From the NCBI GenBank assembly GCA_009839325.1, contig VXPW01000074.1, positions 26,933 to 69,696 on the forward strand: 42,764 nt of DNA, read 5' to 3'. Each line of letters begins with the position of its first letter. Within the stretch, counting starts at the first letter, position 1. The DNA is from Rhodospirillales bacterium (GTDB lineage Bacteria > Pseudomonadota > Alphaproteobacteria > TMED109). Under the pieces are notes generated by a model, which made no database searches, was not told where the DNA came from, and worked only from the letters and a program-made list of their open reading frames with translations. A program made the position numbers and the translations under genes. Shown here piece by piece: positions 5,389 through 29,580 of the stretch.

Positions 5389-5775
5389 TCAACACAGCCG
5401 GACCGGTCCCGGGTAACGGGCGACGGTCTTGTCCGCAGTGAGAAGCGTAATGGCCTCAACCTGTGCCTGCGCCACCAGGAGACGGTCGAAGGGGTCGCCA
5501 TGGATTGGCGGGAGCCCATCCACGGCAATGGCATGAGCTCCGGTGATTGCCAACTCGGTGTAACCGTTTTCCAACAGCCCCCGACGCAGCTGGCGGGGCT
5601 CGACAATGAAATCCGCCCGGCCAAGGCTTCGCTTGATGGTCACCTCCCACAGCGACGCGGCACTGACGACCAACTCATTCTCCGGCTGTTCGATCAGGGC
5701 GCAGGCGTCGCCTGGAAGTTGTTCCGGCACCCCCGCCGCCCACAGCAGCAGTTGGGTGTCGAGCAAAAGTCTCAC
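5389..5775 (-). CDS. vapC: PIN-domain toxin, VapC family
   Basis: This 128-residue PIN-domain ribonuclease toxin belongs to the type II class. The acidic metal-binding residues appear in order: [10 protein letters not shown] (D6), [11 protein letters not shown] (E near 44) and [13 protein letters not shown] (two aspartates near 93-97), followed by LLTAD. The GTG start at 5775 overlaps the antitoxin stop by 4 nt (GTGA), so the two are translationally coupled. PIN toxins of this subgroup (LLLDTxxLLW) are commonly paired with Phd/YefM antitoxins, as here. Their usual targets are tRNA or rRNA, but the target of this one cannot be read from sequence. The gene appears intact. Confidence 0.93.
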
Positions 5776-6017
5776 TTCGTGCCTTCGAACAGGGCTTGCA
5801 GCTCTCCGGCACCCATGCGGTCGAAGTCGTCCGGCACCGAGATCTGTCCCGACATGAACCCGATGCGCCGCTTGACGCCCGCCCTGGGCGCTTCCACGGC
5901 GGCCACCCTGACCACGGGCTTTCCGGCACGAGCAATGATGAAGGGCTCACCGTTGGCGGCGCCCTCGACAAGACGCGACAGGTTGGTCTTTGCCTCGTGC
6001 ATGTTCACGATGCGCAC
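5772..6017 (-). CDS. Antitoxin, Phd/YefM family
   Basis: This 81-residue antitoxin begins with the classical Phd/YefM N-terminus ([20 protein letters not shown], then [15 protein letters not shown]), which forms the dimeric DNA-binding domain. The C-terminal part ([20 protein letters not shown]) is the acidic tail expected to wrap around the toxin. I chose the GTG at 6017 because a GGAG sequence lies at suitable distance upstream and because it gives the usual family length. The ATG at 6002 would remove the first strand. The antitoxin-toxin complex would be expected to repress its own promoter through the repeats at 6031-6056. Confidence 0.93.
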
Positions 6018-6345
6018 ATCGAGTCACTCCAGACTTAGTCTACTAGACTTAGTCTATCCTGACCGAGGAATCAACGGCGACTGCCGGCAACCGGAGTCGA
6101 CGCTACGAGAGGCCCGCGCCGCTGCCGTCCAGGAACGTGTTGGTCACCTGACTGACCCGTCACGCCGTCTCTGCGATGGTCACTACACGTCTTCGGCACT
6201 ATTTCACCGAGTGTGGCCGCGAGGTTTCCACGAACGGGGTTCCGGTCGTGCCGGGAGCGCCACCCCTTTGCAAATCGGCAGGTCTCGGCTACAAACGAGC
6301 CCGGCCCACACGATCCGGCGTTGGCCTAGGACCCCTCTGCACCAC
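6018..6345. other. 328-nt divergent intergenic region, antitoxin / petA
   Basis: The region must carry promoters in both directions. The antitoxin side holds a duplicated 12-nt palindromic element (6031-6056), which is AT-rich against the GC-rich surroundings. The remainder up to petA has no open frame, repeat or RNA gene that I can support. Confidence 0.6.
6031..6056. promoter_or_regulatory. Tandem palindromic operator of the toxin-antitoxin operon
   Basis: Two identical copies of AGACTTAGTCTA (6031-6042 and 6045-6056) are separated by 2 nt. Each contains the odd-centred palindrome AGACT-T-AGTCT. The pair lies 14 nt upstream of the antitoxin start. Phd/YefM antitoxins bind paired palindromes at this position to autorepress. 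The assignment as operator is inferred from position and symmetry. Confidence 0.75.
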
Positions 6346-6873
6346 ATGTCGAATCCAGCTGCTCCAGCGGCGGCTTCAAGCCGCCGCGACTTCCTCAACG
6401 TTGCGTCCGGTGCGTTCGGCGCCGTAGCCGCAGGCTGCGCAACCTGGCCGCTAATCGATCAGATGAATCCGTCGGCCGACGTCCAGGCGATGGCCACGGT
6501 GGACATCGATCTGACCGGCCTCGAACCGGGCACCAGCCGCACCGTGTTGTGGCGCGGAGCCCCTGTGTTCGTGCGTTACCGGACACCTGAAGAAATAGAG
6601 CAGGCCGCTCAGGATGACTCCGCTGATCTGCCCGATCCGGCGACGGACGCCAGCCGGGCGCAGGATCCCCGTTTCCTGGTACTGGTCGGGGTGTGCACCC
6701 ATCTCGGATGCATTCCGATCGGCGACGGGCAAGGCGAATACCAGGGCTGGTTCTGCCCCTGCCACGGCTCGCACTACGACACGTCGGGCCGTATCCGGAA
6801 AGGCCCGGCTCCCAAGAATCTCGCCGTGCCGCCGTACCGTTTCGTAGACGACACGACGATCCGGGTGGGCTGA
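6346..6873 (+). CDS. petA: Ubiquinol-cytochrome c reductase Rieske iron-sulfur subunit
   Basis: This is the Rieske subunit of the cytochrome bc1 complex, which takes an electron from ubiquinol at the Qo site and passes it to cytochrome c1 on the periplasmic side. The 175-residue protein begins with a twin-arginine type N-terminus ([19 protein letters not shown]) that also serves as the membrane anchor. The 2Fe-2S ligands are in CTHLGCIP and [10 protein letters not shown] chose the ATG at 6346 because it sits just before the twin-arginine motif. The frame is open much further upstream, but only as a shadow of other sequence. It is the first gene of petABC, with petB starting 5 nt after its stop. 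Confidence 0.97.
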
Positions 6874-6878
6874 GCGCT

Positions 6879-8099
6879 ATGCAGACTACCGGTCTCGTAT
6901 CGCGGATTGTGCGCTGGATCGACTACCGCCTGCCGGTGTTCTCGGCTGCGCGGCATTCGCTGATCGAGTACCGCACGCCTCGCAACCTGAACGCATTCTG
7001 GAACTTCGGCTCCCTCGCCGGGTTCTTCCTCGTGGTGCAGATCATTACCGGCGTCGTGCTGGCCATGCACTACACGCCGCATGTCGACCACGCCTTCGAC
7101 AGCGTGCAGCACATCATGCGGGACGTGAACTACGGCTGGTTGATCAGGTCCGTACACGCCAACGGGGCCTCGTTCTTCTTCATTTGCGTCTACATCCACA
7201 TCTTCCGGGGGCTCTACTACGGCTCGTACAAGGAACCCCGGGAACTGCTGTGGTGGCTCGGCATCATCATCCTGATCGTGATGATGATGAGCGCGTTCCT
7301 GGGGTACGTGCTGCCGTGGGGCCAGATGAGCTTCTGGGGCGCCACGGTCATTACCAATCTCTTCTCGGCGATACCGGCCATCGGTCCGGCCATCGTCGAA
7401 TGGCTGTGGGGCGGATTCTCGGTCGACAATCCGACGCTGAACCGCTTCTTCTCGCTCCACTACCTCTTGCCGTTCGTCATCGTCGCGCTGGTGTTTCTCC
7501 ACATCGTCGCCCTGCACCGGCACGGTTCGAACAATCCTCTCGGCGTCAATCCCGGCGCGCCGCGGGACACGATTCCGTTCCACCCGTACTACACGGTGAA
7601 GGACCTGGTCGGTCTGGGCATGGCGCTCGTCTTCTTCGCCGGCGTGGTGTTCTACGCCCCGGACAGCCTTGGCCATCCCGACAACTACATCCCGGCCGAT
7701 CCGCTCCGGACGCCGCCGCACATCGTGCCCGAATGGTACTTCCTGCCGTTCTACGCCATTCTCCGAGCTGTCCCGCACAAGCTGGGCGGCGTCATCGCGA
7801 TGTTCGGTGCGGTCTTCGTCCTGTTTGCGCTGCCGTGGCTGGACAGTTCACGAGTCCGGAGCGCCGCGTTCCGGCCGGTCTACCGGTGGCTGTTCTGGCT
7901 GTTCGCGGGCAACACGGTGTTGCTCGGCTGGATCGGTGCGAATCCGCCGGAGGGCATCTACATCACGATCGGAAGGATCGCGACGATCTACTATTTCGCG
8001 CACTTCCTGGTGCTGATGCCGGTGATCGGCCGGATCGAACGTTCCCGACAGTTGCCCGAAAGCATCTATGGCCACAAGCACGGGAGCCAGGGCCCATGA
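6879..8099 (+). CDS. petB: Cytochrome b of the bc1 complex
   Basis: The integral-membrane subunit carries both b hemes and the Qo and Qi quinone sites. Two pairs of heme-ligand histidines, each separated by 13 residues, are visible (in [19 protein letters not shown] and in [20 protein letters not shown]). The Qo-site PEWY motif appears in [16 protein letters not shown], and [19 protein letters not shown] is present. At 406 residues it is a full-length, unsplit bacterial cytochrome b with about eight transmembrane helices. It ends in an ATGA overlap with petC, as is common for translationally coupled complex subunits. Confidence 0.98.
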
Positions 8100-8875
8100 C
8101 GCGCCCGGGGGTACTGTTTGCCGCGGCACTGCTGGCGGCCTTGCAGGTCGGGCAGGTCGCCCGGGCCGCGACCGACGGCCTCGCTCCGCCGGCCGTTGAG
8201 TTTTCGTTTGACGGGCCGTTCGGCCGGATCGACCGCGCCGCGGCGATCCGCGGCTTCGAGGTGTACCGGAACGTCTGCGCGACCTGCCACGGACTCCGGT
8301 TCATGGCGTGGCGCAACCTGGGTGACCTGGGCTTCACCGAGGACGACATACGTCGCATGGCATCGGAGACGCTGGTCACGGACGGGCCGGATGACTTGGG
8401 CGAGATGTTCGAGCGGCCCGGCCGTCCCTCCGACCCCCTGATCACCGAGCCGTTCGCGAACGCGAATGCCGCGGCGGCGGCCAACAACGGCGTCGCGCCG
8501 CCGGATCTCTCGCTCAAGGTGCTGGAACGCGGCGCGCCCTACGTCTATGCGATCCTCATCGGCTACGAGGATCCGCCGGACGGGGTCGACCCGGGGTCTT
8601 CGTACTACAACCCGTACTTTCCGGGATCCGTCATCGCGATGCCGAAGCCGCTCTGGGGCGAGGACGTCACGTACGCGGACGGCACCGAGGCGACCATCGA
8701 ACAGGAAGCTCACGACGTGACGACGTTCCTCGCCTGGGCGGCTGACCCGACTGCGGACGAGCGGAAGCGCATGGGTCTGCGGGTGCTGATCTTCCTGGTG
8801 GTCATGACGGGTGTGTTCTACGCGACCTACCGGCGCACCTGGGTGCCGGTCAAACGCGGCGATGATGACCTTTGA
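8096..8875 (+). CDS. petC: Cytochrome c1 of the bc1 complex
   Basis: This 259-residue c-type cytochrome accepts electrons from the Rieske protein and reduces soluble or membrane cytochrome c. It has a cleavable signal peptide (residues 1 to about 24, ending QVARAA), the heme-binding CATCH motif in [14 protein letters not shown], the methionine axial ligand in [11 protein letters not shown], and a single C-terminal transmembrane anchor ([16 protein letters not shown]) followed by positive residues. It overlaps the petB stop by 4 nt. The gene converges on mtnP with only 12 nt between the stops and no visible terminator. Confidence 0.97.
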
Positions 8876-8887
8876 TGGCGAGGCGGG

Positions 8888-9763
8888 CTAGGCTTCCAGC
8901 GCCCGTCCGGCCACTGCATCCAGTTTCTTCGCGAGTTCCGGGTCACGCGCCTCCGGCGGCGTGATGATCGCCGCGTCGAGCGCCCGGTAGGCAGGATCGG
9001 AATCATCCCAGTCGGTGGCCGCGGCGGTGTTCGCGAAAGCCTCGACCAGGGTCCTCGCGCGGGCGGCGTTGTCCAGCAGCACGCCGACGACCTGCTCGAC
9101 CGTCACGGCCTCGTGGTCCGGATGCCAGCAGTCGTAGTCGGTCATCATCGCCACGCTGGCGTAGGCGATTTCGGCCTCGCGCGCCAGCTTCGCCTCCGGC
9201 ATGTTGGTCATGCCGATCACGTCGCAGCCCCAGGACCGGTAGAGCTCGGATTCGGCTCGCGTTGAAAACTGCGGCCCTTCCATGGCCAGGTACGTACCCC
9301 CGCTCACCGCATCGATGCCAGCAGTGCTGGACGCTTCGGCCAGCAGCCGTCGTAGGCGATCCGAGGTGGGATGGGCCATGGAGACGTGGGCCACGAGACC
9401 GGGTCCGAAGAAGCTCTTGACCCGCGCAAAGGTGCGGTCGATGAACTGATCGACCAGGACGAATGTACCGGGCGGCAAGTCCTCCCTGAGGCTGCCCGCG
9501 GCGGAAAGCGAGATGATGTCGGTCACGCCGGTGCGCTTCAGCGCGTCGATGTTCGCCCGGAAGTTGAGGCTGCTGGGAGGAATGCGGTGGCCGCGGCCGT
9601 GCCGCGGCAGGAAACGAAACTCCAGCCCGTTCAGCCGGCCGTGAAGAATCGCGTCCGACGGCGCGCCAAAGGGGGAGCTTACGGTCATCCAGCTCGGCGA
9701 CTCCAGCGAGTCGAGCTCGTAGATGCCGCTCCCGCCCATCACCCCGAAGACCGGTTTCGTCAT
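8888..9763 (-). CDS. mtnP: S-methyl-5'-thioadenosine phosphorylase
   Basis: This cytosolic enzyme splits methylthioadenosine, the by-product of polyamine synthesis, into adenine and methylthioribose-1-phosphate for methionine and purine salvage. The 291-residue protein has the family's phosphate-binding start (VFGVMGGSGIYEL), the RHGRGHRIPPSSLNFRANI block, the substrate-binding AMEGPQFSTRAES motif and GMTNMPEAKLAREAEI, which distinguishes MTA phosphorylases from purine nucleoside phosphorylases. The ATG at 9763 is 2 nt after the FKBP stop, so the two are probably cotranscribed. The frame extends to 9925 only across the FKBP gene. No other methionine salvage genes lie nearby. Confidence 0.96.
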   Translation of the reverse strand: MTKPVFGVMGGSGIYELDSLESPSWMTVSSPFGAPSDAILHGRLNGLEFRFLPRHGRGHRIPPSSLNFRANIDALKRTGVTDIISLSAAGSLREDLPPGTFVLVDQFIDRTFARVKSFFGPGLVAHVSMAHPTSDRLRRLLAEASSTAGIDAVSGGTYLAMEGPQFSTRAESELYRSWGCDVIGMTNMPEAKLAREAEIAYASVAMMTDYDCWHPDHEAVTVEQVVGVLLDNAARARTLVEAFANTAAATDWDDSDPAYRALDAAIITPPEARDPELAKKLDAVAGRALEA

Positions 9764-9765
9764 GG

Positions 9766-10206
9766 CTAGAAATCGGCCACGGAGAGCACTTCCACTTCGA
9801 AGACGAGCGTCGCGTTCGGAGGAATCAGTCCTCGTGCGGCGCCGTGTTCTCCGTAGGCCATGTCCGGCGGGATGACCAGGCAGCGTTGTCCACCGACCTG
9901 CATCCCGACGACACCGATGTCCCAACCGGGAATGACGAAGCCCTCACCAAGCGGGAAATTGAACGGCCGTTGACGGTTCCGGGAACTGTCGAACTGCTTG
10001 CCCCGCGCAAGGCAGGGATCGTCGGTTGCTGCATCGGGATCGAACAGCCATCCCGTGTAGTGCACGCTCACGCCGCGGCCAGCCTCGGCAAGCCGGCCAT
10101 CGCCGGTCTGCAGATCGACCACGACGAGCTCGGCGGGCGGTTCGATGGCCAGCGCGGCCGATGGCGCCAGGAACGCCGCCAGGGCGACCGCGGCTGCCCG
10201 GTTCAC
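9766..10206 (-). CDS. FKBP-type peptidyl-prolyl cis-trans isomerase, exported
   Basis: This 146-residue protein has a signal peptide (MNRAAAVALAAFLAPSAALA) followed by one FKBP domain. The domain motifs VSVHYTGWLFD, KQFDSSRNRQRPFNFPLGEG, VIPGWDIGVVGMQVGGQR and LIPPNATLVFEVEVLSV are complete, so it should fold periplasmic proteins by isomerising prolyl bonds. It starts with GTG at 10206, overlapping the dienelactone hydrolase stop by 4 nt, and is followed 2 nt later by mtnP. A pair of cysteines (DPCLARG and QRCLVIPP) is somewhat unusual for the fold and could form a disulfide in the periplasm. Confidence 0.94.
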   Translation of the reverse strand: MNRAAAVALAAFLAPSAALAIEPPAELVVVDLQTGDGRLAEAGRGVSVHYTGWLFDPDAATDDPCLARGKQFDSSRNRQRPFNFPLGEGFVIPGWDIGVVGMQVGGQRCLVIPPDMAYGEHGAARGLIPPNATLVFEVEVLSVADF

Positions 10207-10886
10207 GAGGTTTCTTCCCTGGCCACGTGCCTGGCGAAGAATGCGAGGGTGCGTTCATTGGCAGCTTCCGCCGAGGCCGGGTGATGGCTGCCGCGCGCGT
10301 GGCAGGCGAACCCGTGTTCGCCTTCGTACACGTGAATGTCGGCGTCGGTCGCGAAGGCGCGGATCTTCTCGACGTCTTCCGGCGGGATGGACGCGTCGCG
10401 GTCTCCGAAATGCATCTGCACGGGCACGTTGGCCGGCTTGTCGAGCAAGGCTGCGATCTGTCCGCCGTAGTAACAGACGGCTGCCTCCATGCCGTAGCCG
10501 CGGCAGGCGCTGAGCCACGACAACGAACCTCCGTAGCAGAAGCCGACCACGCCGACCCTGTGGTCGATCAACAGGGTGGCGATACAGGTCTGCACATCCA
10601 TGACGGGCAGGTCCCAGCCCGTCTGCGACTTGAGTTCCAGGCCGCGCTGGACGTCGGCTGCCTCGTAGCCGAGTTCGATTCCGGGCTCAATCCGGTGGTA
10701 GAGGTCCGGCGCGTAACACACGTAACCGGCCTCGGCGAACTGGTCTGCCACGCCGCGGATGTACGGGTTGACGCCAAAGATTTCCTGGATGACCACCAGC
10801 GACCCACGGCGGATTCCCGTGGGCTCGGCGAGATAGACGGGCAAACTGGTGTCATCGGCGGCGCGCACCGCGATCATTGATCCCAT
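10203..10886 (-). CDS. Dienelactone hydrolase family alpha/beta hydrolase
   Basis: This 227-residue protein carries the dienelactone hydrolase triad: nucleophilic cysteine 117 in VGFCYGGS, aspartate near 164 in FGDRDASIP and histidine 191 in YEGEHGFACH. The conserved glutamate 35 in VIQEIFGVN positions the thiol. Family members open carboxymethylenebutenolide lactones in aromatic degradation, but many act on unknown esters, and no aromatic pathway genes are adjacent. It is first in a three-gene leftward operon with FKBP and mtnP. The start at 10886 is an ATG, and an ATG three codons inside is an alternative. Confidence 0.92.
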   Translation of the reverse strand: MGSMIAVRAADDTSLPVYLAEPTGIRRGSLVVIQEIFGVNPYIRGVADQFAEAGYVCYAPDLYHRIEPGIELGYEAADVQRGLELKSQTGWDLPVMDVQTCIATLLIDHRVGVVGFCYGGSLSWLSACRGYGMEAAVCYYGGQIAALLDKPANVPVQMHFGDRDASIPPEDVEKIRAFATDADIHVYEGEHGFACHARGSHHPASAEAANERTLAFFARHVAREETS

Positions 10887-11041
10887 GAGGGCTGAATCCG
10901 ATTCGGGCGAAGTGGGTTGCTGGGGATCCCGCCTGGGCGAGCAGCGCGCTTTGTAGCCCGGGCAGGCCCGGGTTTCCAGAGCGGGGACGAAAGCGGGCGG
11001 CGGCGTTGCGCCGGTCGGCGAAACATCGTCCCCGGTTGAGC

Positions 11042-11065
11042 ATATTGCCTAAGAACTAGGCATAT
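11042..11065. repeat. Inverted repeat in the urtA upstream region
   Basis: TTGCCTA at 11045-11051 is mirrored by TAGGCATAT at 11057-11065 around a short AGAAC spacer. The core GCCTA/TAGGC is perfect and its flanks are near-symmetric. It lies about 110 nt upstream of the sigma-54-type element, the distance at which enhancer proteins such as NtrC bind. It does not match the usual NtrC site (TGCACC-N4-GGTGCA), so the binding protein is unknown. Confidence 0.4.
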
Positions 11066-11160
11066 CATTCGCAGTGATGATCATTATACGTGCATGTATT
11101 TCAGATCAGTTGCCTGCGAAGTCGGTTTCCGCGCAAGCTGGAAGCGTTCAGCCGCAAAAG

Positions 11161-11176
11161 TGGCATGAACATTGCT
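11161..11176 (+). promoter_or_regulatory. Sigma-54 (RpoN) -24/-12 promoter for the urea locus
   Basis: TGGCATGAACATTGCT matches the sigma-54 consensus TGGCACG-N4-TTGCW at every position except the sixth. The invariant GG (11162-11163) and GC (11174-11175) have the required spacing. Transcription would start near 11187, leaving a leader of about 67 nt before urtA. Urea uptake genes are commonly under NtrC and RpoN, so nitrogen limitation is the likely signal. Confidence 0.75.
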
Positions 11177-11253
11177 TCAGTGAGGGCGTGGTGCAGTCCG
11201 CAAGGCGGCCCCGGACATCGGTGGGTGTGCACCAGACTTCACGGAGAAATTCT

Positions 11254-12543
11254 ATGTTTCGAAACCAGCGTCACCTGGTCTTCGCAGGCATCCTGGCCGC
11301 GTCGACCGCACTGAGTGGAGCGGCGCAGGCCGAGACCATCAAGGTCGGTGTCCTGCATTCACTTTCCGGCACGATGGCCATCAGCGAGACCACGTTGAAG
11401 GACACGATGCTGATGCTCATTGAGGAGCAGAACAGTAAGGGCGGCCTGCTCGGCAAGATGCTTGAGCCAGTCGTTGTTGATCCGGCATCGAACTGGCCCC
11501 TCTTTGCCGAAAAGGCTCGCGAGCTGATCGAGCAGCATGAAGTCGCCGTGATCTTCGGGAACTGGACGTCGGTGTCCCGCAAGTCGGTGCTGCCGGTGAT
11601 CGAGGAGCTCAACGGACTGCTGTTCTACCCCGTTCAGTACGAAGGCGAAGAGAGCTCCCGGAACGTGTTCTACACCGGCGCAGCTCCGAATCAGCAGGCC
11701 ATTCCCGCGGTTGACTATCTCCTCAGCGAGGACGGTGGTGGAGCCGAACGGATCGCGCTCCTGGGCACGGACTACGTGTACCCGCGTACTACCAACAAGA
11801 TCCTCCGCGCATACCTGAACGCGAAGGGAATCTCGGACGAGGACATCCTGGAGAACTACACGCCGTTCGGGCACGCCGACTGGCAGACGATCGTGGGGGA
11901 TGTCAAGAAGTTCGCTTCCGAAGGCAAGAAGACGGCCGTGGTCTCGACGATCAACGGTGACGCCAATGTCCCGTTCTACAAGGAGCTGGCCAACCAGGGC
12001 ATCATGGCCGAGGACATTCCCGTGGTTGCCTTCTCGGTCGGCGAAGAGGAACTGGCCGGGCTCGACACCGAACCCCTCGTAGGCCACCTCGCAGCGTGGA
12101 ACTACTTCATGAGCGTGGAGACTGACGAGAACGAGGCGTTCATCGAGAAATGGCACGCGTTCATCGAGGACGAGGACCGCGTGACGAACGACCCCATGGA
12201 AGCCCATTACATCGGCTTCAACATGTGGGTGCAGGCGGTGCAGCAGGCCGGCACGGTGGACGTCGATGCCGTACGGCAGGCCATGTACGGTCAGACCTTC
12301 AAGAACCTGACCGGCGGCACGGCCATGATGAACACCAACCATCACCTGTCGAAGCCGGTCCTCATCGGCGAGATCCAGGATGACGGGCAGTTCGAGACGG
12401 TCTGGGAAACCGACGGGGTGGTCAAGGGTGACGCCTGGTCGGACTTCATTCCCGAAAGCGCGAAGCTGACTGCCGACTGGACCTTCCCGTGGGTCTGCGG
12501 CAACTGCGAGGCCCCGAAGTTCGGCGCGACCGCCGACATGTAG
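11254..12543 (+). CDS. urtA: Urea ABC transporter, substrate-binding protein
   Basis: UrtA captures urea in the periplasm and delivers it to the UrtBC channel. The 429-residue protein has a signal peptide (residues 1 to about 27, ending GAAQA) and the UrtA-type mature start (ETIKVGVLHSLSGTMAISET). The Leu/Ile/Val-binding-protein fold is followed by YPVQYEGEESSRNVFYTGA and FGHADWQTIVGDVKKF, typical of the urea and short-amide subgroup. A cysteine pair (VCGNCEAPKFG) lies near the C-terminus. The ATG at 11254 is preceded by GGAG at 8-nt spacing. A strong hairpin follows the stop. Confidence 0.97.
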   Translation: MFRNQRHLVFAGILAASTALSGAAQAETIKVGVLHSLSGTMAISETTLKDTMLMLIEEQNSKGGLLGKMLEPVVVDPASNWPLFAEKARELIEQHEVAVIFGNWTSVSRKSVLPVIEELNGLLFYPVQYEGEESSRNVFYTGAAPNQQAIPAVDYLLSEDGGGAERIALLGTDYVYPRTTNKILRAYLNAKGISDEDILENYTPFGHADWQTIVGDVKKFASEGKKTAVVSTINGDANVPFYKELANQGIMAEDIPVVAFSVGEEELAGLDTEPLVGHLAAWNYFMSVETDENEAFIEKWHAFIEDEDRVTNDPMEAHYIGFNMWVQAVQQAGTVDVDAVRQAMYGQTFKNLTGGTAMMNTNHHLSKPVLIGEIQDDGQFETVWETDGVVKGDAWSDFIPESAKLTADWTFPWVCGNCEAPKFGATADM

Positions 12544-12550
12544 GCGGCGC

Positions 12551-12596
12551 ATCCGGTCAGGGGCAGCGGGACCGCTCCCGCCGCCCCTGACCGGAT
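12551..12596 (+). terminator. Large stem-loop between urtA and urtB (attenuator-like)
   Basis: A 14-bp perfect stem (12551-12564 pairs with 12583-12596), one A-C mismatch, then a further 5-bp GCGGG/CCCGC stem enclose a 6-nt loop. No T-tract follows directly, so it is unlikely to be a full terminator. Stem-loops at this place after binding-protein genes usually protect the upstream mRNA and reduce downstream expression, giving excess UrtA over the membrane subunits. Confidence 0.75.
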
Positions 12597-12663
12597 CGAG
12601 CGTCGTTTCTCTGCCGTTTTCCTCCGGCCTCTGGCCGGTTTTCCAACGTCCGGACCCGCTGCC

Positions 12664-18417: not shown

Positions 18418-20124
18418 GTGCCATTTTCCATCGAGCGGGCGGCCTACGCCGCCATGTACGGGCCGACGGTCGGCGACCGGGTGCGGCTGGCCGACACCGA
18501 CCTGTTCATAGAGGTGGAAGCCGATCGGACCGTGTACGGCGAGGAGGTCAAGTTCGGCGGCGGCAAGGTCATCCGCGACGGCATGGGCCAGGGATCCGCC
18601 GGCCGTGCGGACGGCGCGGTGGACACCGTGATCACGAACGCCCTGATCGTCGATCACTGGGGAGTGGTCAAGGCGGACGTGGGCCTTCGCGATGGACGGA
18701 TCGCCGCGATCGGCAAGGCCGGCAATCCGGATACGCAGCCGAACGTGGACATCGTCGTCGGGCCGGGCACCGAGGCAATCGCCGGCGAGGGCCGCATCCT
18801 GACCGCCGGCGGCATCGATGCGCACATTCACTGGATCTGCCCGCAGCAGGTCGACGATGCCCTCTACTCGGGCGTCACCACGATGCTGGGCGGCGGCACG
18901 GGTCCTGCTGAAGGGACGAATGCGACAACATGCACACCGGGGCCCTGGCACCTGGCACGCATGCTGGAAGCCGCGGAGGAGTTGCCTGTCAATCTCGGCT
19001 TCTACGGCAAGGGGAACGCCTCCGAGCCGACGGCGCTGGTCGAGCAGGTGCGCGCCGGAGCCTGCGGCCTGAAGCTGCACGAGGACTGGGGTACTACGCC
19101 CGCGGCCATCGACACGTGTCTGTCCGTCGCGGACGAGTGGGACGTCGGCGTCGCGATCCACACCGACACGCTGAACGAGTCGGGCTACCTCGAGACGACG
19201 ACGGCCGCGTTCCGGAACCGCACCATTCATGCGTTCCACACCGAAGGGGCCGGTGGCGGCCATGCGCCGGACATCATCAGGCTTTGTGGCGAGCCCAACG
19301 TGTTGCCGTCCAGCACCAATCCCACCCGTCCGTTCACCGTGAACACCGTCGACGAGCACCTCGACATGCTCATGGTGTGCCATCACCTGGATCCGAACAT
19401 TCCGGAGGACGTGGCTTTTGCGGAGAGCCGCATTCGGCGCGAGACCATCGCGGCGGAGGACATCCTGCACGATCTCGGAGCGTTTTCGATGATCGCCTCC
19501 GACAGTCAGGCCATGGGTCGGGTCGGGGAAGTCATCGTCCGGACCTGGCAGACCGCCGACAAGATGAAGCGGCAGCGCGGCCGTCTCCCGGAGGAGCGCG
19601 GCGACAACGACAACTTCAGGGTGCGGCGGTACATCGCGAAATACACGATCAATCCGGCCGTCACGCACGGGATCGACGGTGAGGTCGGCTCGGTCGAGGT
19701 GGGCAAGTTGGCCGACCTGGTGCTGTGGAAGCCGATGTTCTTCGGCGTCAAGCCCGATCTTGTGCTCAAGGGAGGAGCGATCGTCGCGGCGGCGATGGGG
19801 GACCCGAACGCGTCGATTCCCACGCCGCAGCCCGTGCACTACCGGCCGATGTTCGCGGCGCTGGGGCGGGCCCGGACTTCGACATCGGTGACGTTCGTCT
19901 CGCAGGCGGGCCTGGAGGACGGACTGGGCGAGCTCGGCCTCACGAAGCGGCTGGTGGCGGTGTCGGGTACCCGGGCGCTCGGCAAGAAGGACATGGTGCT
20001 GAACGATCTCTGCCCGGCGATCGACGTCGACCCGGAGACGTACGAGGTCCGCGCCGACGGAGCGCTGCTGACCTGTGAGCCGGCGACCCGATTGCCGATG
20101 GCCCAGCGCTACTTTCTGTTTTGA
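18418..20124 (+). CDS. ureC: Urease alpha (catalytic) subunit
   Basis: UreC hydrolyses urea to ammonia and carbamate at a dinuclear nickel site. At 568 residues it is full length. The nickel ligands and active-site residues are all in place: H136 and H138 in [12 protein letters not shown]219 (carbamylated) in [10 protein letters not shown]248, H274 in [15 protein letters not shown], the flap C321-H322 in MVCHHLD, and D362 in ASDSQAMGR. The start is a GTG at 18418. A tryptophan replaces the common phenylalanine after HIH, which is conservative. The enzyme should be active if nickel and the accessory proteins are present. Confidence 0.98.
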
Positions 20125-20614: not shown

Positions 20615-21286
20615 GTGGAAGCCGATCGGCGCATCATCCGCCTGATGGCATGGCTCGGACCGTCGTTTCCGGTCGGCGCCTACGCGTACTCGCACGGCAT
20701 CGAGTATGCCGTCGAGGCCGGACTGGTCCACGACCAGGACACGCTGGCAACGTGGGTACGCGGCATCCTCCGGTTTGGCGCCGCCCGCGTCGATGCCGAT
20801 CTCTACCGCGAGACCTGGCACGCGACCCGGTGCGGCGACAGCGAGCGCCTGGCCGCGGTGGGAGCTCTGGGCCGGGCCATGCGCGGCACGTTCGAGATCG
20901 CGGCCGAGACCACCGCTCAGGGAACCGCCTTCGAGGATACGGTCGCGGCGGCCTGGAACGGTGACGGTTCGGCGGACGGGCACCCGCCGCCGGCATATCC
21001 GGTCAGCGTCGCCACCGCGGTCGCCCGGGAGGACATCCCGGTTCGGGAGGGGCTGGCCGCCTACCTTCACGCAGTGACGGCGAACCTGGTATCCGCCGGG
21101 ATTCGGCTCATCCCGCTCGGCCAGGTCGCCGGGCAGCGCATCCTGGCCGATCTCGAATCGGACGTCCTTCAGGCCACCGGCGAGGCGCTCGGCCGGTCGT
21201 TGGACGACATCGGCTCCGCGGCAGTCGTCGTGGACTGGGCATCCATCCGGCACGAAACCCAATACACGAGGTTATTCCGATCATGA
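20615..21286 (+). CDS. ureF: Urease accessory protein UreF
   Basis: UreF binds UreD and acts on the GTPase cycle of UreG during nickel insertion. The all-helical 223-residue protein has the signature [20 protein letters not shown] and the C-terminal [17 protein letters not shown] chose the GTG at 20615, 8 nt after the ureE stop, because UreF proteins carry a short helix before the signature. The ATG at 20645 would cut into it. The frame is open back to 20414, but that stretch only shadows ureE. It overlaps ureG by 4 nt. Confidence 0.94.
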
Positions 21287-21897
21287 CCACACCGTTCCGC
21301 GTGGGCATCGGCGGGCCCGTCGGCTCCGGCAAGACGGCCTTGCTGGACGGCCTGTGCAAGTCGATGCGCGACAGTTACGACATTGCGGCCATCACGAATG
21401 ACATCTACACCCGCGAGGACGCGGAGTTCCTGACCCGCTCCGGCGCGCTCACCCCGGAACGGATCCAGGGGGTCGAGACCGGCGGATGTCCCCACACCGC
21501 GATTCGGGAGGACGCCTCGATGAATTTGGCGGCGATCGCACAGCTGGAAGCCGCGTTCCCCGGGCTCGACGTGGTGTTCGTGGAGTCCGGCGGCGACAAT
21601 CTCGCGGCGACGTTTTCGCCGGAGCTCGCCGACTTGACCCTCTACGTGATCGATGTCTCGGCGGGTGACAAGATCCCGCGTAAGGGCGGACCCGGGATCA
21701 CCCGATCCGACTTGCTGATCATCAACAAGACGGATCTTGCGCCGCTGGTCGGCGCGGACCTTGAGGTGATGGACCGCGATACGAAGCGGATGCGCGGTTC
21801 ACGACCCTTCCTGTTCGCGCAGGTGAAGCACGGCAAGGGAGTCCGCGCGGTGGCGGAATTCATCGTGGAGTCCGGGGGGCTCGCGACGGGGCGTTAG
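21283..21897 (+). CDS. ureG: Urease accessory GTPase UreG
   Basis: UreG is the SIMIBI-class GTPase whose nucleotide cycle drives nickel delivery into urease. The 204-residue protein contains the P-loop [11 protein letters not shown] (residues 10-20), the metal-binding CPH motif in [32 protein letters not shown] and the G4 motif [11 protein letters not shown]. It is the last gene of the urea locus. It converges on the SDR gene with 11 nt between the stops, so any terminator must lie inside coding sequence. Confidence 0.97.
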
Positions 21898-24953: not shown

Positions 24954-25994
24954 ATGCAAGCGAAGAACGCCGACTGGCTCGACCTGGTCCAGGAACAGGC
25001 ACTGGAGCCTGAACTTCCGATCTGTGATCCCCATCATCACTTCTGGGACCGTCGCGATGTGATGGTCCAGCCCCGTTATCTGCTGGATGAGATCCTGGCC
25101 GACCTTGGCGGCGGCCACCGGGTGGTCAGCACGGTCTACGTCGAGTGCGGGGCGATGTACCGGCGCGGGGCAACACCACACACGCGGGTCGTAGGGGAGA
25201 CGGAGTTTGTGAACGGCCTCGCGGCCATGGCGGCCTCCGGGCTCTACGGCGAGGCTCAGATTGCCGCCGCCATCGTCGGGACGGCCCCTCTCGACGAGGG
25301 CGACGGCGTAGCGGCCACGCTGGACGCGCAGCTTGCGGCCAGCCCGGCGCGCTTCCGCGGCATCCGCCACGTGGTCGCCTGGGACGAGAGCCCCGAACTT
25401 CCGGTCGCCCGTGCGGCGCCTCCGTCCGGCCTGATGGCGAGCGACGCCTTTCGCGCCGGCTTCCGGCACCTGGCGCCCCGGGGGCTGACATTTGATCTGT
25501 GGTGCTACCACCCGCAGTTGTCAGAGGCCGTCGACCTGGTCCGCGCGTTCCCCGATCAGACGGTCATTCTCGATCACTTCGGCGGGCCGCTCGGCGTGGG
25601 GCCGTACGCGAACCGTGCCGACGAGGTCTTCGACGACTGGCGGGAGCGAATGGCGGAGCTGGCCCAATGTCCGAACGTGGTGGCGAAGCTCGGAGGGATC
25701 AACATGGAGGTGAACGGCTTCGGCTGGCACAGTCGCGGCCGTCCGCCGTACAGCTGGGAGTTGATGGAGGCGACCCGACGGTACTACGAGACGATGATCG
25801 AGCTGTTCGGCGTCGACCGCTGCATGTTCGAATCGAACTTCCCGGTCGACAAGGTCAGCTGCAGCTACACGGTGCTGTGGAACTCGTTCAAACGGCTCGT
25901 CGCCGGCTCCTCGGAGGACGAAAAGCGGGCACTGTTCCACGACACGGCGACCAGGGTCTATCGGATCCAGCCGTCCGCCACCCCGTCGGATTGA
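24954..25994 (+). CDS. Amidohydrolase family protein (amidohydrolase_2 type)
   Basis: This 346-residue TIM-barrel metal-dependent hydrolase belongs to the PF04909 type, which includes lactonases and decarboxylases. The metal-binding HxH appears as ICDPHHHFWD near residue 25. The strand-end histidine in VILDHFGGPLG, the VVAKLGGINM block and the terminal aspartate region FESNFPVDKVSCSY follow. The substrate is not predictable. It is preceded by CAGG and GGGAG sequences before the ATG. A 7-bp hairpin directly follows the stop. Confidence 0.92.
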   Translation: MQAKNADWLDLVQEQALEPELPICDPHHHFWDRRDVMVQPRYLLDEILADLGGGHRVVSTVYVECGAMYRRGATPHTRVVGETEFVNGLAAMAASGLYGEAQIAAAIVGTAPLDEGDGVAATLDAQLAASPARFRGIRHVVAWDESPELPVARAAPPSGLMASDAFRAGFRHLAPRGLTFDLWCYHPQLSEAVDLVRAFPDQTVILDHFGGPLGVGPYANRADEVFDDWRERMAELAQCPNVVAKLGGINMEVNGFGWHSRGRPPYSWELMEATRRYYETMIELFGVDRCMFESNFPVDKVSCSYTVLWNSFKRLVAGSSEDEKRALFHDTATRVYRIQPSATPSD

Positions 25995-26115: not shown

Positions 26116-27117
26116 TCAGCGCGGCTTGCGCGCCTTGTGGTAGTACATGGGCGTAAAGATCCCCAGGCGCCCGGCGGCCACGAGGCTGTCAGCCGCCACG
26201 TTGAGAAGGCGCTGTATCTCGAACGTACCTTGGGGCACGGCGCGCACGCCTTCCAGCACGCGCAGGGCCACCGAGGTGATCTTGCGGCCCAGGCGGGTTC
26301 TCGGCAGACCCCGCAGTGTCAGGCCGTTTCCCTCCAGCGGTCGATACCACGGTGTATGCGCGTCGGCGTCCGGGGCGCGGTCGCGCGCCTCGATCAGCTC
26401 GAAACCCGCGGCCTGCAGACCGTCGGTGACGACCGAGTACGAAGCAATCTCCGGAAGGGCATTGCTGTATTCGATCCGTTCCTTGAGTTCCCGGTGCTCC
26501 GGGTTGTCCCCGTCGTACAGCGGCGTCACGCACCAGTCGTAGCCGGCGAAAACCGCCCCCGGGCGCAACACGCGGAATACCTCGGCATAGGCGGCCGCCT
26601 TGTCCGGCGCGTGGGCAATGGCCTCGATATGGTAGGCCGCGTCAAAGGTCCCGGCTTCTGCAGGAATGGCCATGAAGTCGCCGTGCAGGGCGCTGCACAG
26701 GTGATCCAGCCCGGCCTCCCGGTTGTAGCGGTCGCACTTCTCGATCTGATATGCGCTGAGGTTGAGGCCCGTGACCGAGGACCCGAATTGTCTGGCAAGG
26801 GAGCGTTGCGGGCCGCCGACACCGCAGCCGACATCCAGCACCTTCATGCCGGGCTTCAGGCCAACGGCTTCACCCAGAAAATGTTGGTGGGCGACGAGGG
26901 ATGCCTCGAACGACTCACCGCCCTTCATTGGCGCGAAGTGAAAGGACTGACCCCAACCGTACTCGTAGAAGTCGGTAATGAGATCGTAAAAGGCCTTTAC
27001 CATCAGGGCGTAGTCTGCCTTGCCCTGCTCCTGACTGCGACGGTACTTCGACAGCGTCTCGGCCGTGTCTTCCGGACGAACAGCCTGGGAAATGGGATTG
27101 TGAAAGTTAGCCGCCAT
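26116..27117 (-). CDS. Sterol C-24 methyltransferase (SMT/Erg6-like)
   Basis: This 333-residue SAM-dependent methyltransferase follows plant and fungal sterol C-24 methyltransferases along its whole length. It has the sterol-binding signature YEYGWG at residues 51-56 within DFYEYGWGQSFHFAP, SAM motif I VLDVGCGVGGP (93-103), IEAIAHAPD (164-172, IEATCHAP in eukaryotes), NPEHRELKERIE (205-216) and PWYRPL (256-261). The C-terminal sterol-MT domain ends FTPMYYHKARKP. Known relatives methylate the side chain of zymosterol, cycloartenol or desmosterol at C-24. The start overlaps the upstream Rieske gene by 11 nt, so the two are coupled. The specificity, and whether it acts on host-derived or self-made sterols, are unknown. 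A broader cyclopropane/gamma-tocopherol methyltransferase role is less likely, because the C-terminal domain is complete. Confidence 0.88.
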   Translation of the reverse strand: MAANFHNPISQAVRPEDTAETLSKYRRSQEQGKADYALMVKAFYDLITDFYEYGWGQSFHFAPMKGGESFEASLVAHQHFLGEAVGLKPGMKVLDVGCGVGGPQRSLARQFGSSVTGLNLSAYQIEKCDRYNREAGLDHLCSALHGDFMAIPAEAGTFDAAYHIEAIAHAPDKAAAYAEVFRVLRPGAVFAGYDWCVTPLYDGDNPEHRELKERIEYSNALPEIASYSVVTDGLQAAGFELIEARDRAPDADAHTPWYRPLEGNGLTLRGLPRTRLGRKITSVALRVLEGVRAVPQGTFEIQRLLNVAADSLVAAGRLGIFTPMYYHKARKPR

Positions 27118-28159
27118 CGTTGCTTACCGGCAGGTTAGCGACGGGACCGTCAGGGTAGAACTGCCGGTACCACTGATGCATTTTGCGCCTGGGGTCCGCC
27201 TCTTCGGTTCCCGGAGGACATGGCCGGTAGATCTTTCTCTTCCAAATCGCCACGTCCCGTCGCCATTGCGAGATCCAGTTCCCGATCACATAGGACACCA
27301 GTATGCGTGGCACGCGACGGGCAGCGAACCAGCGGAAGCTCACCCGCTGCTTCAGCGGTTCCACGGGCGTGTGCGACTGGAACATGATGATTTCGCCGAT
27401 TCTCGGAATCTGGAATTGAAATCTCACGATGCTGCCCGGGCCAAGAAACGTGATCGACGCGCGTGCCCTTGTTCTCTCGAATACCCGGCCCCCGATTTCC
27501 AGCGTTGCCTCGTCTCCGAAATAGGACACGTGCCCAAGTTCGTCGTCCACCGACCAAGAAGGGCGGTGTCGGATTCTTATCCAGGGCAGTCCTATGCCGG
27601 TCCACGGGATACGCATGACACGGTGGATGTTCGAGAAGTGCTGAAAGTCAACGCTGTTTTCGGCAAATTCGATGATGTGCATGTCGACTTCACCGGCGTC
27701 GTGCTGGCCGCGATAGACCAGCTGCCGACTGTCGATGTTCGGTTGCGGCGGGAGCCGGTAGGGTGCTTCGGCGACGCGGCCGGATGACCGGTACATCATG
27801 ACCATTCCGTAGTAGTCGATGGCCTCCCAGCAGCGGTGAACGAGAGGTTGGTCTTCGGCGTGGGGATGGCTGCGGGCCCGTCCGTTGGCGTCCAGTTGCC
27901 AGCCGTGAAACGGGCATTGCAGACGGTCCCCCTTGACCTCGCCGTAGGCCAGGTTGGCGCCCTGATGCGGGCAGAAAGCGTCAACCGCCCCGATTCGGCC
28001 GTCCGTCTTGCTGCGGAACACGGCGATCTGTTCACCCAGGCACTGAACGTGCCGCACGTCGCCCGGCCTGATCTCGTCGGATGCCGCCAACCGGTACCAG
28101 CCGTCCGGGTAGGGCGGCGGGTAGGTGAGCTCCCTGTGACGTGTCGGGCTGACGGTCAT
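27107..28159 (-). CDS. Rieske non-heme iron oxygenase, steroid-type
   Basis: This 350-residue oxygenase has a Rieske 2Fe-2S domain, with C63-x-H65 in AFCPHQGANL and C82-x2-H85 in QCPFHGW. The mononuclear iron site reads N168-x2-D171-x2-H174-x4-H179 (ENSVDFQHFSNIH), with a likely third ligand at D302 in QWRRDVAIW. The opening PPPYPDGWYRLAASDEIRPG and the tail QWYRQFYP resemble the group that holds DAF-36/Neverland cholesterol 7-desaturase, KshA steroid 9-alpha-hydroxylase and the bacterial sterol C-4 demethylase SdmA. The first two act directly on steroid rings. It needs a separate reductase, and none is adjacent. It is coupled to the sterol methyltransferase by an 11-nt overlap. The exact reaction cannot be decided from sequence. 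Confidence 0.85.
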   Translation of the reverse strand: MTVSPTRHRELTYPPPYPDGWYRLAASDEIRPGDVRHVQCLGEQIAVFRSKTDGRIGAVDAFCPHQGANLAYGEVKGDRLQCPFHGWQLDANGRARSHPHAEDQPLVHRCWEAIDYYGMVMMYRSSGRVAEAPYRLPPQPNIDSRQLVYRGQHDAGEVDMHIIEFAENSVDFQHFSNIHRVMRIPWTGIGLPWIRIRHRPSWSVDDELGHVSYFGDEATLEIGGRVFERTRARASITFLGPGSIVRFQFQIPRIGEIIMFQSHTPVEPLKQRVSFRWFAARRVPRILVSYVIGNWISQWRRDVAIWKRKIYRPCPPGTEEADPRRKMHQWYRQFYPDGPVANLPVSNDGG

Positions 28160-28224: not shown

Positions 28225-29580
28225 CTAGGCGGGTTCGTTGGGTCTCCCGAAAGCGGCTTCCATCTCGCGGCGGGTTCGGACCGCCTCGTCCGTGTCCTGG
28301 ACGGCGGCGTCGGACCACCGGAGGAGCTCGCCCTCGGCGATGTCCCGGGTCAGCGGCACGCCGCTCGCCAGGCCAAGGGGCAGCCCGCCGAATTCCAGCG
28401 AATCGATCGCGGGGGACTGCCGGCCCCAGACCATGTAGCCGCCTTCTCCGTCCAGCATTTCGCCTTTCTTGAGCGGCCGCTTCGCACAAGCGATGACGTC
28501 GGAGCGGAAACCGGTCGGCGATCCGGTCGGCTCCCCTCGGAGCGCCGCCGAAGCCACCGAGATCCCGAGTTCGAGCCCGATCATGTGCGTGGGGCGGTAG
28601 AGCGCGGCGTAGTGGAACGTGCTGTCGGGGAGCATCCGATACTCCTCGAAGCAGTTCCGGACGTAGTCGCTGTCCCCTTCGATCACCACGTAGGTGCCCA
28701 CCATCAGGTCATCGCTGACCGGGGACATGTCCCGGTGGAGCGAGGACACCACTTCGGTGGTACCGACATGCTCGGCAAGTCCACCCGCGCTGGCGGGCTT
28801 CAGCATTTCGGCGAGGTCGTAGCGCGAGCAGGGCGGGAAGGTGAGGCCACCAGCCTGCGGCGTGAGCCCGGTGGCATTGCAGACCGCCGTCATTTCGATT
28901 CCCGACTTGGTCCCGTCGATGAAGGAATTGAACATCTTCGGATTCATGCCACCGCGTTCGGCCTCTTCCCGGCTCAGGTGAAAGTTGTCCCAGACGGTAT
29001 CGGGTGTCGAACGGTGAAAGTCCGGGTGGTAGCGCGTCCCCTTCCCGGCGCAAACCACGTTGAACCCGCAGGCCCGCGCCCAGTCGACATGCTCGGCGAT
29101 CAGCGCAGGTTGGTCACCCCAGGCCAGGCTGTACACCACGCCGGCTTCTTCGGCGCGCCGGGCGAGGAGCGGCCCCGCGAGGACGTCCGCCTCGACGTTG
29201 ACCATGACGACATGCTTGCCATGGTCGATCGCCGCCAGGCAGTGGCGAATCCCCACCTTGGGGTCACCGGTCGCCTCGATCAGGACGTCAAGGGCCGGAT
29301 GGGCAATCAGTGCCGGCGCATCGTCATCGATCCGCGTCGTCCCGGTCTTGACCGCCTGGTCAAGATCCACCGCCCCGGTCTGCTCTGCGCTCCAGCCGCC
29401 TCGCCGGCAGTTCGCGCGGGCCTTGGCGACATCCAGGTCGGCGATGCCGACCACGTGGAGGCCGCGCGTTCGACGGGCCTGTGCCAGGAACATGGTGCCG
29501 AACTTGCCGGCCCCGATGATGCCGACACGGACCGGACTTCCGGCTTCGGCGCGGGCTTCCAGAAGACGGGACAGATTCAT
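28225..29580 (-). CDS. NAD(P)-dependent oxidoreductase with C-terminal SAF domain
   Basis: This 451-residue protein has an N-terminal Rossmann domain (VGIIGAGKFGTMF, residues 19-31) like that of homoserine dehydrogenase and a C-terminal SAF domain (ACAKRPLKKGEMLDGEGG up to GVPLTRDIAEGELLRW). The combination is the COG4091 type, predicted to reduce or oxidise sugar acids or amino acid semialdehydes. It has no established sterol role. The ATG at 29580 overlaps the GNAT stop by 4 nt. A 65-nt gap separates it from the Rieske oxygenase, the only real break in this part of the run. Confidence 0.88.
   Translation of the reverse strand: MNLSRLLEARAEAGSPVRVGIIGAGKFGTMFLAQARRTRGLHVVGIADLDVAKARANCRRGGWSAEQTGAVDLDQAVKTGTTRIDDDAPALIAHPALDVLIEATGDPKVGIRHCLAAIDHGKHVVMVNVEADVLAGPLLARRAEEAGVVYSLAWGDQPALIAEHVDWARACGFNVVCAGKGTRYHPDFHRSTPDTVWDNFHLSREEAERGGMNPKMFNSFIDGTKSGIEMTAVCNATGLTPQAGGLTFPPCSRYDLAEMLKPASAGGLAEHVGTTEVVSSLHRDMSPVSDDLMVGTYVVIEGDSDYVRNCFEEYRMLPDSTFHYAALYRPTHMIGLELGISVASAALRGEPTGSPTGFRSDVIACAKRPLKKGEMLDGEGGYMVWGRQSPAIDSLEFGGLPLGLASGVPLTRDIAEGELLRWSDAAVQDTDEAVRTRREMEAAFGRPNEPA

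Follow-up and report, generated by a model that had tools for sequence, protein, structure and literature searches.

Bacterial sterol methyltransferases (SMTs) and their activity are already known. In 2023, Brown et al. reported in vitro activity for 8 of 10 SMTs from sponge symbionts and for 12 of 14 SMTs from other metagenomes, and found activity also for the SMT of a Chlamydiae metagenome-assembled genome (MAG) without other sterol genes (PMC10070321). A year earlier, Kelly et al. described an enrichment of SMT in Ircinia MAGs, and in Ircinia symbionts the gene can flank a cluster of steroid genes (CSG; PMC9531527). Coxiella Stmp1 provides a further instance of bacterial sterol modification (PMC8787468). 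Here we analyzed a 42,764-nucleotide stretch of DNA (the window) from a Rhodospirillales bacterium, in which an SMT gene (SMT-A) overlaps the gene of a Rieske oxygenase (RieskeA) resembling 3-ketosteroid 9alpha-hydroxylase (KshA). This pairing is what is new: no published description of it was found in the literature searched (main texts), with the words Rieske and P450 absent from the main text of PMC10070321 and Rieske absent from that of PMC9531527. The preliminary description of this DNA had proposed that the bacterium may alkylate sterol side chains, with a bearing on unusual sponge sterols. A bacterial SMT as such is no longer novel in view of these two studies. The sponge link is plausible, because jk18x25bins.17, the closest named genome among the matches listed (92% SMT identity), has a bin name from the series that appears in the Ircinia study, whose text mentions two jk18 bins (PMC9531527). 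Our main reading, to which we give a probability of roughly 0.58, is that the two predicted enzymes form a sterol-editing pair in an alphaproteobacterium of symbiont type, which would combine C-24 alkylation with ring oxidation of sterols obtained from the sponge or from other symbionts, as opposed to sterols made de novo.

The SMT-A open reading frame (ORF) occupies exactly positions 26116-27117 on the minus strand, starts with ATG and encodes 333 amino acids. All five motifs listed in the preliminary description were confirmed in the stated order, YEYGWG, DVGCGVGGP (the SAM motif), IEAIAHAPD, NPEHRE and PWYRPL, together with a complete C-terminal sterol-methyltransferase domain, in agreement between the ORF, Pfam and an alignment with Erg6 and plant SMT1. 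Sterol_MT_C (PF08498) matched residues 273-332 with an E-value of 2.3e-20 and 72.9 bits against a curated cut-off of 21.7, Methyltransf_11 matched at 6.2e-19, and class I methyltransferase domains were matched as well; NCBIfam listed no SMT model. Region I reads FYEYGWGQSFHF, the sterol-binding pattern of this region presumably being YEYGWG.SFHF. Region III, IEAIAHAPD, retains the glutamate and histidine of what we take to be the Erg6/SMT1 version, IEATCHAP, with IA in place of TC. Identity was 41% over 314 aligned positions with Erg6 and 44.5% over 339 with Arabidopsis SMT1, both approximate values, and the three proteins are co-linear end to end, through the C-terminus. Of two SMT-A alignments, with 13 and 57 rows, the larger yielded a structural model with a pLDDT of 88.2 and pTM of 0.88, superseding that from the 13-row set (pLDDT 45). 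By Foldseek, the model adopts a class I methyltransferase fold, with AtmM, MitM, RebM and a geranyl-PP methyltransferase within the top 50; such a predicted fold says nothing on substrate. Of 22 solved sequences that matched the SMT-A profile at 1e-10, not one extends past profile position 262, which leaves the sterol C-terminal domain without sequence coverage among them.

Phylogenetic analysis used 69 rows, with Erg6 and SMT1 as the only eukaryotic sequences and no sponge SMT. SMT-A grouped with 57 other SMT rows, including Erg6 and SMT1 (90/92, below the starred level); outside this 58-row SMT side stood 8 small-molecule methyltransferase rows and 3 long divergent rows. Clustering with tocopherol or small-molecule methyltransferases, which the preliminary description had named as evidence against its proposal, did not occur, and we rejected such an assignment given the separation of SMT-A from these 8 rows. 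Judged by domain, motifs, full-length alignment and tree, SMT-A is a genuine SMT-family protein and not a tocopherol or small-molecule methyltransferase, which bears out the identity first proposed. The label 'eukaryote-like' does not extend to eukaryotic origin. SMT-A falls into an 11-row bacterial clade (100/100) comprising six genus copies, locus L057, two Dadabacteria and two Gammaproteobacteria MAGs; Erg6 and SMT1 form a separate pair within the same SMT clade, the branching among whose clades the tree does not resolve. Recent horizontal acquisition from a eukaryote such as the host sponge or an alga would account for the 41-44.5% identity to the eukaryotic SMTs, but appears extremely unlikely, as all nearest rows are bacterial in this tree without sponge SMTs, the ORF is intact within an overlapping gene pair, and its surroundings are shared in six genomes. 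According to Brown et al., 23 of 24 metagenomic SMTs stand apart from sponge SMTs (PMC10070321).

The first gene of the pair, at 27107-28159 on the minus strand, encodes RieskeA, a 350-residue Rieske non-haem iron oxygenase with a KshA_C domain. Pfam matched the Rieske domain at 8.5e-23 and KshA_C at 1e-13, and both metal-site motifs are present, CPH...CPFH at residue 63 and NSVDFQHFSNIH at 168, corresponding to the Rieske CxH...CxxH and the D..H....H iron site. The best solved relative is the 3-ketosteroid 9alpha-hydroxylase 4qdf (E 1.1e-25, residues 14-337). By these features RieskeA belongs to the group of KshA/Neverland-type steroid Rieske oxygenases, with ring oxidation as the predicted reaction. 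Assignment as the bacterial 4beta-methylsterol monooxygenase SdmA was considered and rejected: the SdmA model matched only residues 20-180 (2.1e-14, 53.3 bits), and in a tree of Rieske proteins, which form three groups (RieskeA, 93/97; a second type, RieskeB, 96/95; SdmA, 100/100), RieskeA lies outside the SdmA clade. The 600-bit cut-off of the NCBIfam SdmA model was not deciding, since it is missed also by an SdmA-like protein (386.7 bits) from a genome of the same genus, G005; unlike RieskeA, that protein carries a VanA_C domain and reaches 8.8e-116 with the SdmA model.

Between the two genes, the 11-nt overlap ATGGCGGCTAA (27107-27117, minus strand) contains the stop codon of the Rieske gene and the start codon of the SMT gene, and suggests translational coupling of RieskeA and SMT-A. 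With the SMT-A start codon inside the 3' end of the Rieske gene, the term 'operon' used in the preliminary description fits the sequence. Outside the pair lie a DRL/SAF-type oxidoreductase gene (28225-29580, minus strand) and an Amidohydro_2 gene (24954-25994, plus strand). Two further ORFs of the window, at 18418-20124 and 21283-21897, look like a urease alpha subunit and a ureG-like GTPase, identities that we presume from their translations, and fit a bacterial contig. KshA, the best solved relative of RieskeA, is a catabolic enzyme, which raises the alternative that the pair serves steroid catabolism, with KshA-like ring opening and a methyltransferase acting on a breakdown product. We consider this very unlikely, given that no further steroid-catabolic family appeared among the 20 window ORFs (Pfam) and that SMTs need a sterol side-chain double bond.

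Conservation was assessed across the seven genomes of the genus (G000-G006). The window belongs to G000, a 2.73 Mb assembly of 111 contigs estimated to be 92.4% complete, and lies on a 78.5 kb contig. A search of 61 genomes gave an SMT match at 1e-20 in nine; a full-length SMT occurs in 7/7 genus genomes and in none of 21 other family genomes, many of them small and incomplete, and G042 and G055 have partial matches only (32-34%). SMT-A is found in six genus genomes (absent from G003), as is a second enzyme, SMT-B (absent from G001). The five other copies of SMT-A are 93, 92, 78, 77 and 76% identical to that of the window and dN/dS is 0.14-0.30 (15 pairs, NG86), so the ORF does not owe its existence to chance. 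RieskeA gave 0.13-0.30 (10 pairs, NG86), and both genes are under purifying selection. The SMT-A/RieskeA pair is present in G000, G001, G002, G005 and G006 (5/7), with an identical overlap length in the latter four when counted to the SMT start that aligns with the ATG of the gene in the window. In G004, SMT-A is kept and only the 3' end of a Rieske gene is recognizable upstream. In G003, neither pair gene stands between the adjoining DRL and amidohydrolase genes, which are 275 bp apart; the DRL gene is present in all seven genomes, and its G000 protein is 98% identical to those of both G003 and G005. From this comparison of the G003 and G004 loci we infer that the pair is probably the ancestral state of the genus, that it was lost in G003, and that RieskeA was probably deleted in G004.

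G000 encodes three SMTs in all: SMT-A, SMT-B (49% identical, contig C90) and SMT-C (43%, contig C68), the latter two placed in clades other than that of SMT-A. SMT-C may reflect a binning error, because its contig is short (16.4 kb) and it has no counterpart in other genus genomes; it adjoins a protein joining a GPP34 domain to a cytochrome P450. The neighbors of SMT-B are the same in G000 and G003. They include an MMPL/RND transporter and a LolA-like protein (L007 2-3393 in G000), which are candidates for lipid transport; the L007 transporter has a weak sterol-sensing-domain match, below cut-off. In G003 the neighborhood (L047 2776-4579 and 11142-14533) shows, beside the transporter and LolA-like protein, a Steroid_dh protein (5-alpha-reductase type) and a 3-beta-HSD/SdmB-like protein, so that sterol reduction and transport are possible roles.

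Whether the bacterium makes its own sterols had been left open in the preliminary description. No match to a cyclase (SQHop_cyclase_C, PF13243) or squalene epoxidase (SE, PF08491) was detected genome-wide in G000, and the substrate would therefore probably come from outside. HpnC, HpnD and HpnE scored above cut-offs in G000 and SQS_PSY is present in 7/7 genus genomes, by which gene content G000 can make squalene. ERG4_ERG24 was not found in G000 and occurs in one of the seven genomes. With neither RieskeB nor an amine-oxidase-like gene (beside SMT-C in other loci, and within the genus in G003 and G004 only) found in G000, its sterol gene set is small or partly missing. Both cyclase and SE occur in G001, G005 and G006, and both are absent from the other four genomes. 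As SE and cyclase are in only 3/7 genomes, gene content suggests that some genus members probably make sterols and others only edit them.

An unlikely alternative is that G000 synthesizes alkylated sterols de novo, with SE and cyclase encoded in the 8% of the genome that the assembly does not contain. Its relatives G001, G005 and G006 carry these enzymes, G005 with consecutive SdmB-SdmA-ERG4/24 and fused SE/OSC genes; squalene formation by hpnCDE is in place; and because 11 of the 13 regions examined have SE and OSC fused in a single ORF (separate in L095, incomplete in L046, no match in L045), both could fall into a single gap. However, G002, G003 and G004, with estimated completeness of 93-97%, likewise lack SE and cyclase, and ERG4_ERG24 is kept in only one genome, yet SMT in all seven. 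Examples of the fused ORF are L043 4767-8213 and L044 7166-10576. We do not regard the fusion as new, since 'fused SMO/OSC homologs' already appear in the methods of PMC10070321.

The presence of hpnCDE without a detected cyclase, together with the altered region III of the SMT-A clade, also bears on a different substrate. The alga Botryococcus has SMT-like TMT enzymes that methylate squalene-type linear triterpenes, and SMT-A could in principle methylate squalene or a similar compound. This seems less likely still than de novo synthesis, because the partner RieskeA is a steroid-type oxygenase, other bacterial SMTs have OSC nearby in at least 10 of 40 named loci (from the best 80 of 245 relatives), and metagenomic SMTs are reported to be active on sterols (PMC10070321).

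We thus return to the editing of imported sterols. Squalene can be made while SE and cyclase were not found, which points to sterol uptake by G000 from a sponge host or neighboring sterol-making symbionts. RieskeA, encoded first, would oxidize the steroid ring, our guess being either a desaturation at C7, of the kind attributed to Neverland/DAF-36, or a hydroxylation. SMT-A would methylate the side chain of desmosterol or a 24-methylene type sterol at its C24 double bond, with S-adenosylmethionine as methyl donor. Points against this reading are the deviation of region III from the common ATCHAP, the SE and cyclase of three relatives within the genus, and the occurrence of SMT-A without RieskeA in some genomes.

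To compare related loci, we searched genome contigs and used the best 80 of 245 relatives, so that taxon counts are lower bounds, and retained 40 named loci that encode a full SMT (43 SMT proteins) on stretches cut at contig ends. Left out were L056 (same contig as in G002), L094 (partial), L096, L097, the second L071 methyltransferase and, from L100 onward, methyltransferases without the C-terminal part; L095, L098 and L099 were kept. RieskeA gave 18 matches of at least 60 bits, of which 14 were cross-matches to proteins of the RieskeB or SdmA type; the 4 that were counted place RieskeA-type proteins in at least four loci (L057, L071, L084 and, in two pieces, L087). RieskeB types occur in at least 6 and GPP34 domains in at least 7 of the 40. 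The Rieske gene precedes SMT in the genus, L057 and L084, and follows it in L071 and L087; with both orders seen, it is the pairing, not gene order, that is conserved. L071, from an uncultured bacterium not known to be a member of the genus, holds consecutively (5494-12622) SMT, a RieskeA-type oxygenase, a FAD_binding_4 protein (a domain that we take to be present in DHCR24), a second methyltransferase and a TPP enzyme. No RieskeA match was found in the stretches examined of the two Dadabacteria and two Gammaproteobacteria SMT-A loci (L060 ends 0.8 kb upstream), which, with the loss in G004, indicates that the enzymes are not mutually dependent. The occurrence of SMTs in different phyla points to gene transfer between sponge symbionts, with the proviso that MAG labels may hold binning errors; Kelly et al. 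inferred such transfer for steroid clusters (PMC9531527).

Several of these loci encode an N-terminal fusion of GPP34 (GOLPH3) to cytochrome P450, of which we met no mention in the literature searched. Both domains exceeded cut-offs in 10/10 proteins from several phyla (L008 4169-6208, which is the G000 protein next to SMT-C, L042, L048, L049, L059, L083, L085, L089, L090 and L093). A cluster of SMT-C, GPP34-P450 and RieskeB recurs in L083, L085, L089, L090 and L093 (partly in L058/L059), sometimes with SMT-B and in some cases with an amine-oxidase-like FAD protein; no OSC was found within the stretches examined. From its gene content, it looks like a second sterol-modifying kit common to several phyla. 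In G001 (L042 3019-4278), an APH/EcKL (ecdysteroid kinase-like) protein is encoded between hopene-cyclase-like and GPP34-P450 genes. L070 4425-8999, from the 'Candidatus Versatilivorator vitaminiformans' isolate m_rhlh7, is one stop-free 1524-residue ORF in which squalene epoxidase and the two cyclase domains are joined to an entire SMT, Sterol_MT_C included. Seen in one MAG only, it is possibly a three-step fusion leading from squalene to a side-chain-methylated sterol, and possibly the product of a sequencing error masking a stop; in other loci with both SE/OSC and SMT, the SMT is separate and on the opposite strand, except in L095. Tentatively, and with distinctly less confidence than for the pair itself, we propose that the genus has sterol-editor members that make no sterols themselves and use such kits (SMT with a KshA-type Rieske; SMT with the GOLPH3-domain-P450 fusion and a second Rieske) to turn host or neighbor sterols into C-24-alkylated, ring-oxidized products.

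C28-C30 steranes are taken as traces of eukaryotes and 24-isopropylcholestane as a trace of sponges. Bacterial SMTs already weaken the reading of steranes as eukaryote biomarkers. If sterol editing holds true, OSC, a usual marker of bacterial sterol makers, overlooks a class of sterol-altering bacteria, and some unusual sponge sterols and fossil steranes would combine an animal ring skeleton with a bacterial side chain. The SMT-Rieske pair offers a small, expressible system for testing this.

Compared with known systems, SMT-A shares motifs, C-terminal domain and co-linearity with Erg6 and plant SMT1 but is less than half identical to them, has an altered region III, and is located in a bacterial gene pair. 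RieskeA shares its Rieske and KshA_C architecture with KshA by sequence comparison and presumably with Neverland/DAF-36; the similarity is full-length but weak, and RieskeA is paired with an SMT. SdmA is likewise a Rieske oxygenase, and acts on sterols. Unlike the Ircinia CSG as described by Kelly et al. (PMC9531527), G000 has no detected ERG24 or cyclase, and none stands beside the pair. The SMTs of sponge symbionts, Chlamydiae and Sandaracinus reported by Brown et al. (PMC10070321) match SMT-A in family and sponge-symbiont setting, and the Chlamydiae case resembles G000 in being without other sterol genes. Where the SMTs of that study are clustered, they sit with further sterol biosynthesis genes, sdmA and sdmB among them (PMC10070321), whereas SMT-A sits with a KshA-type Rieske oxygenase.
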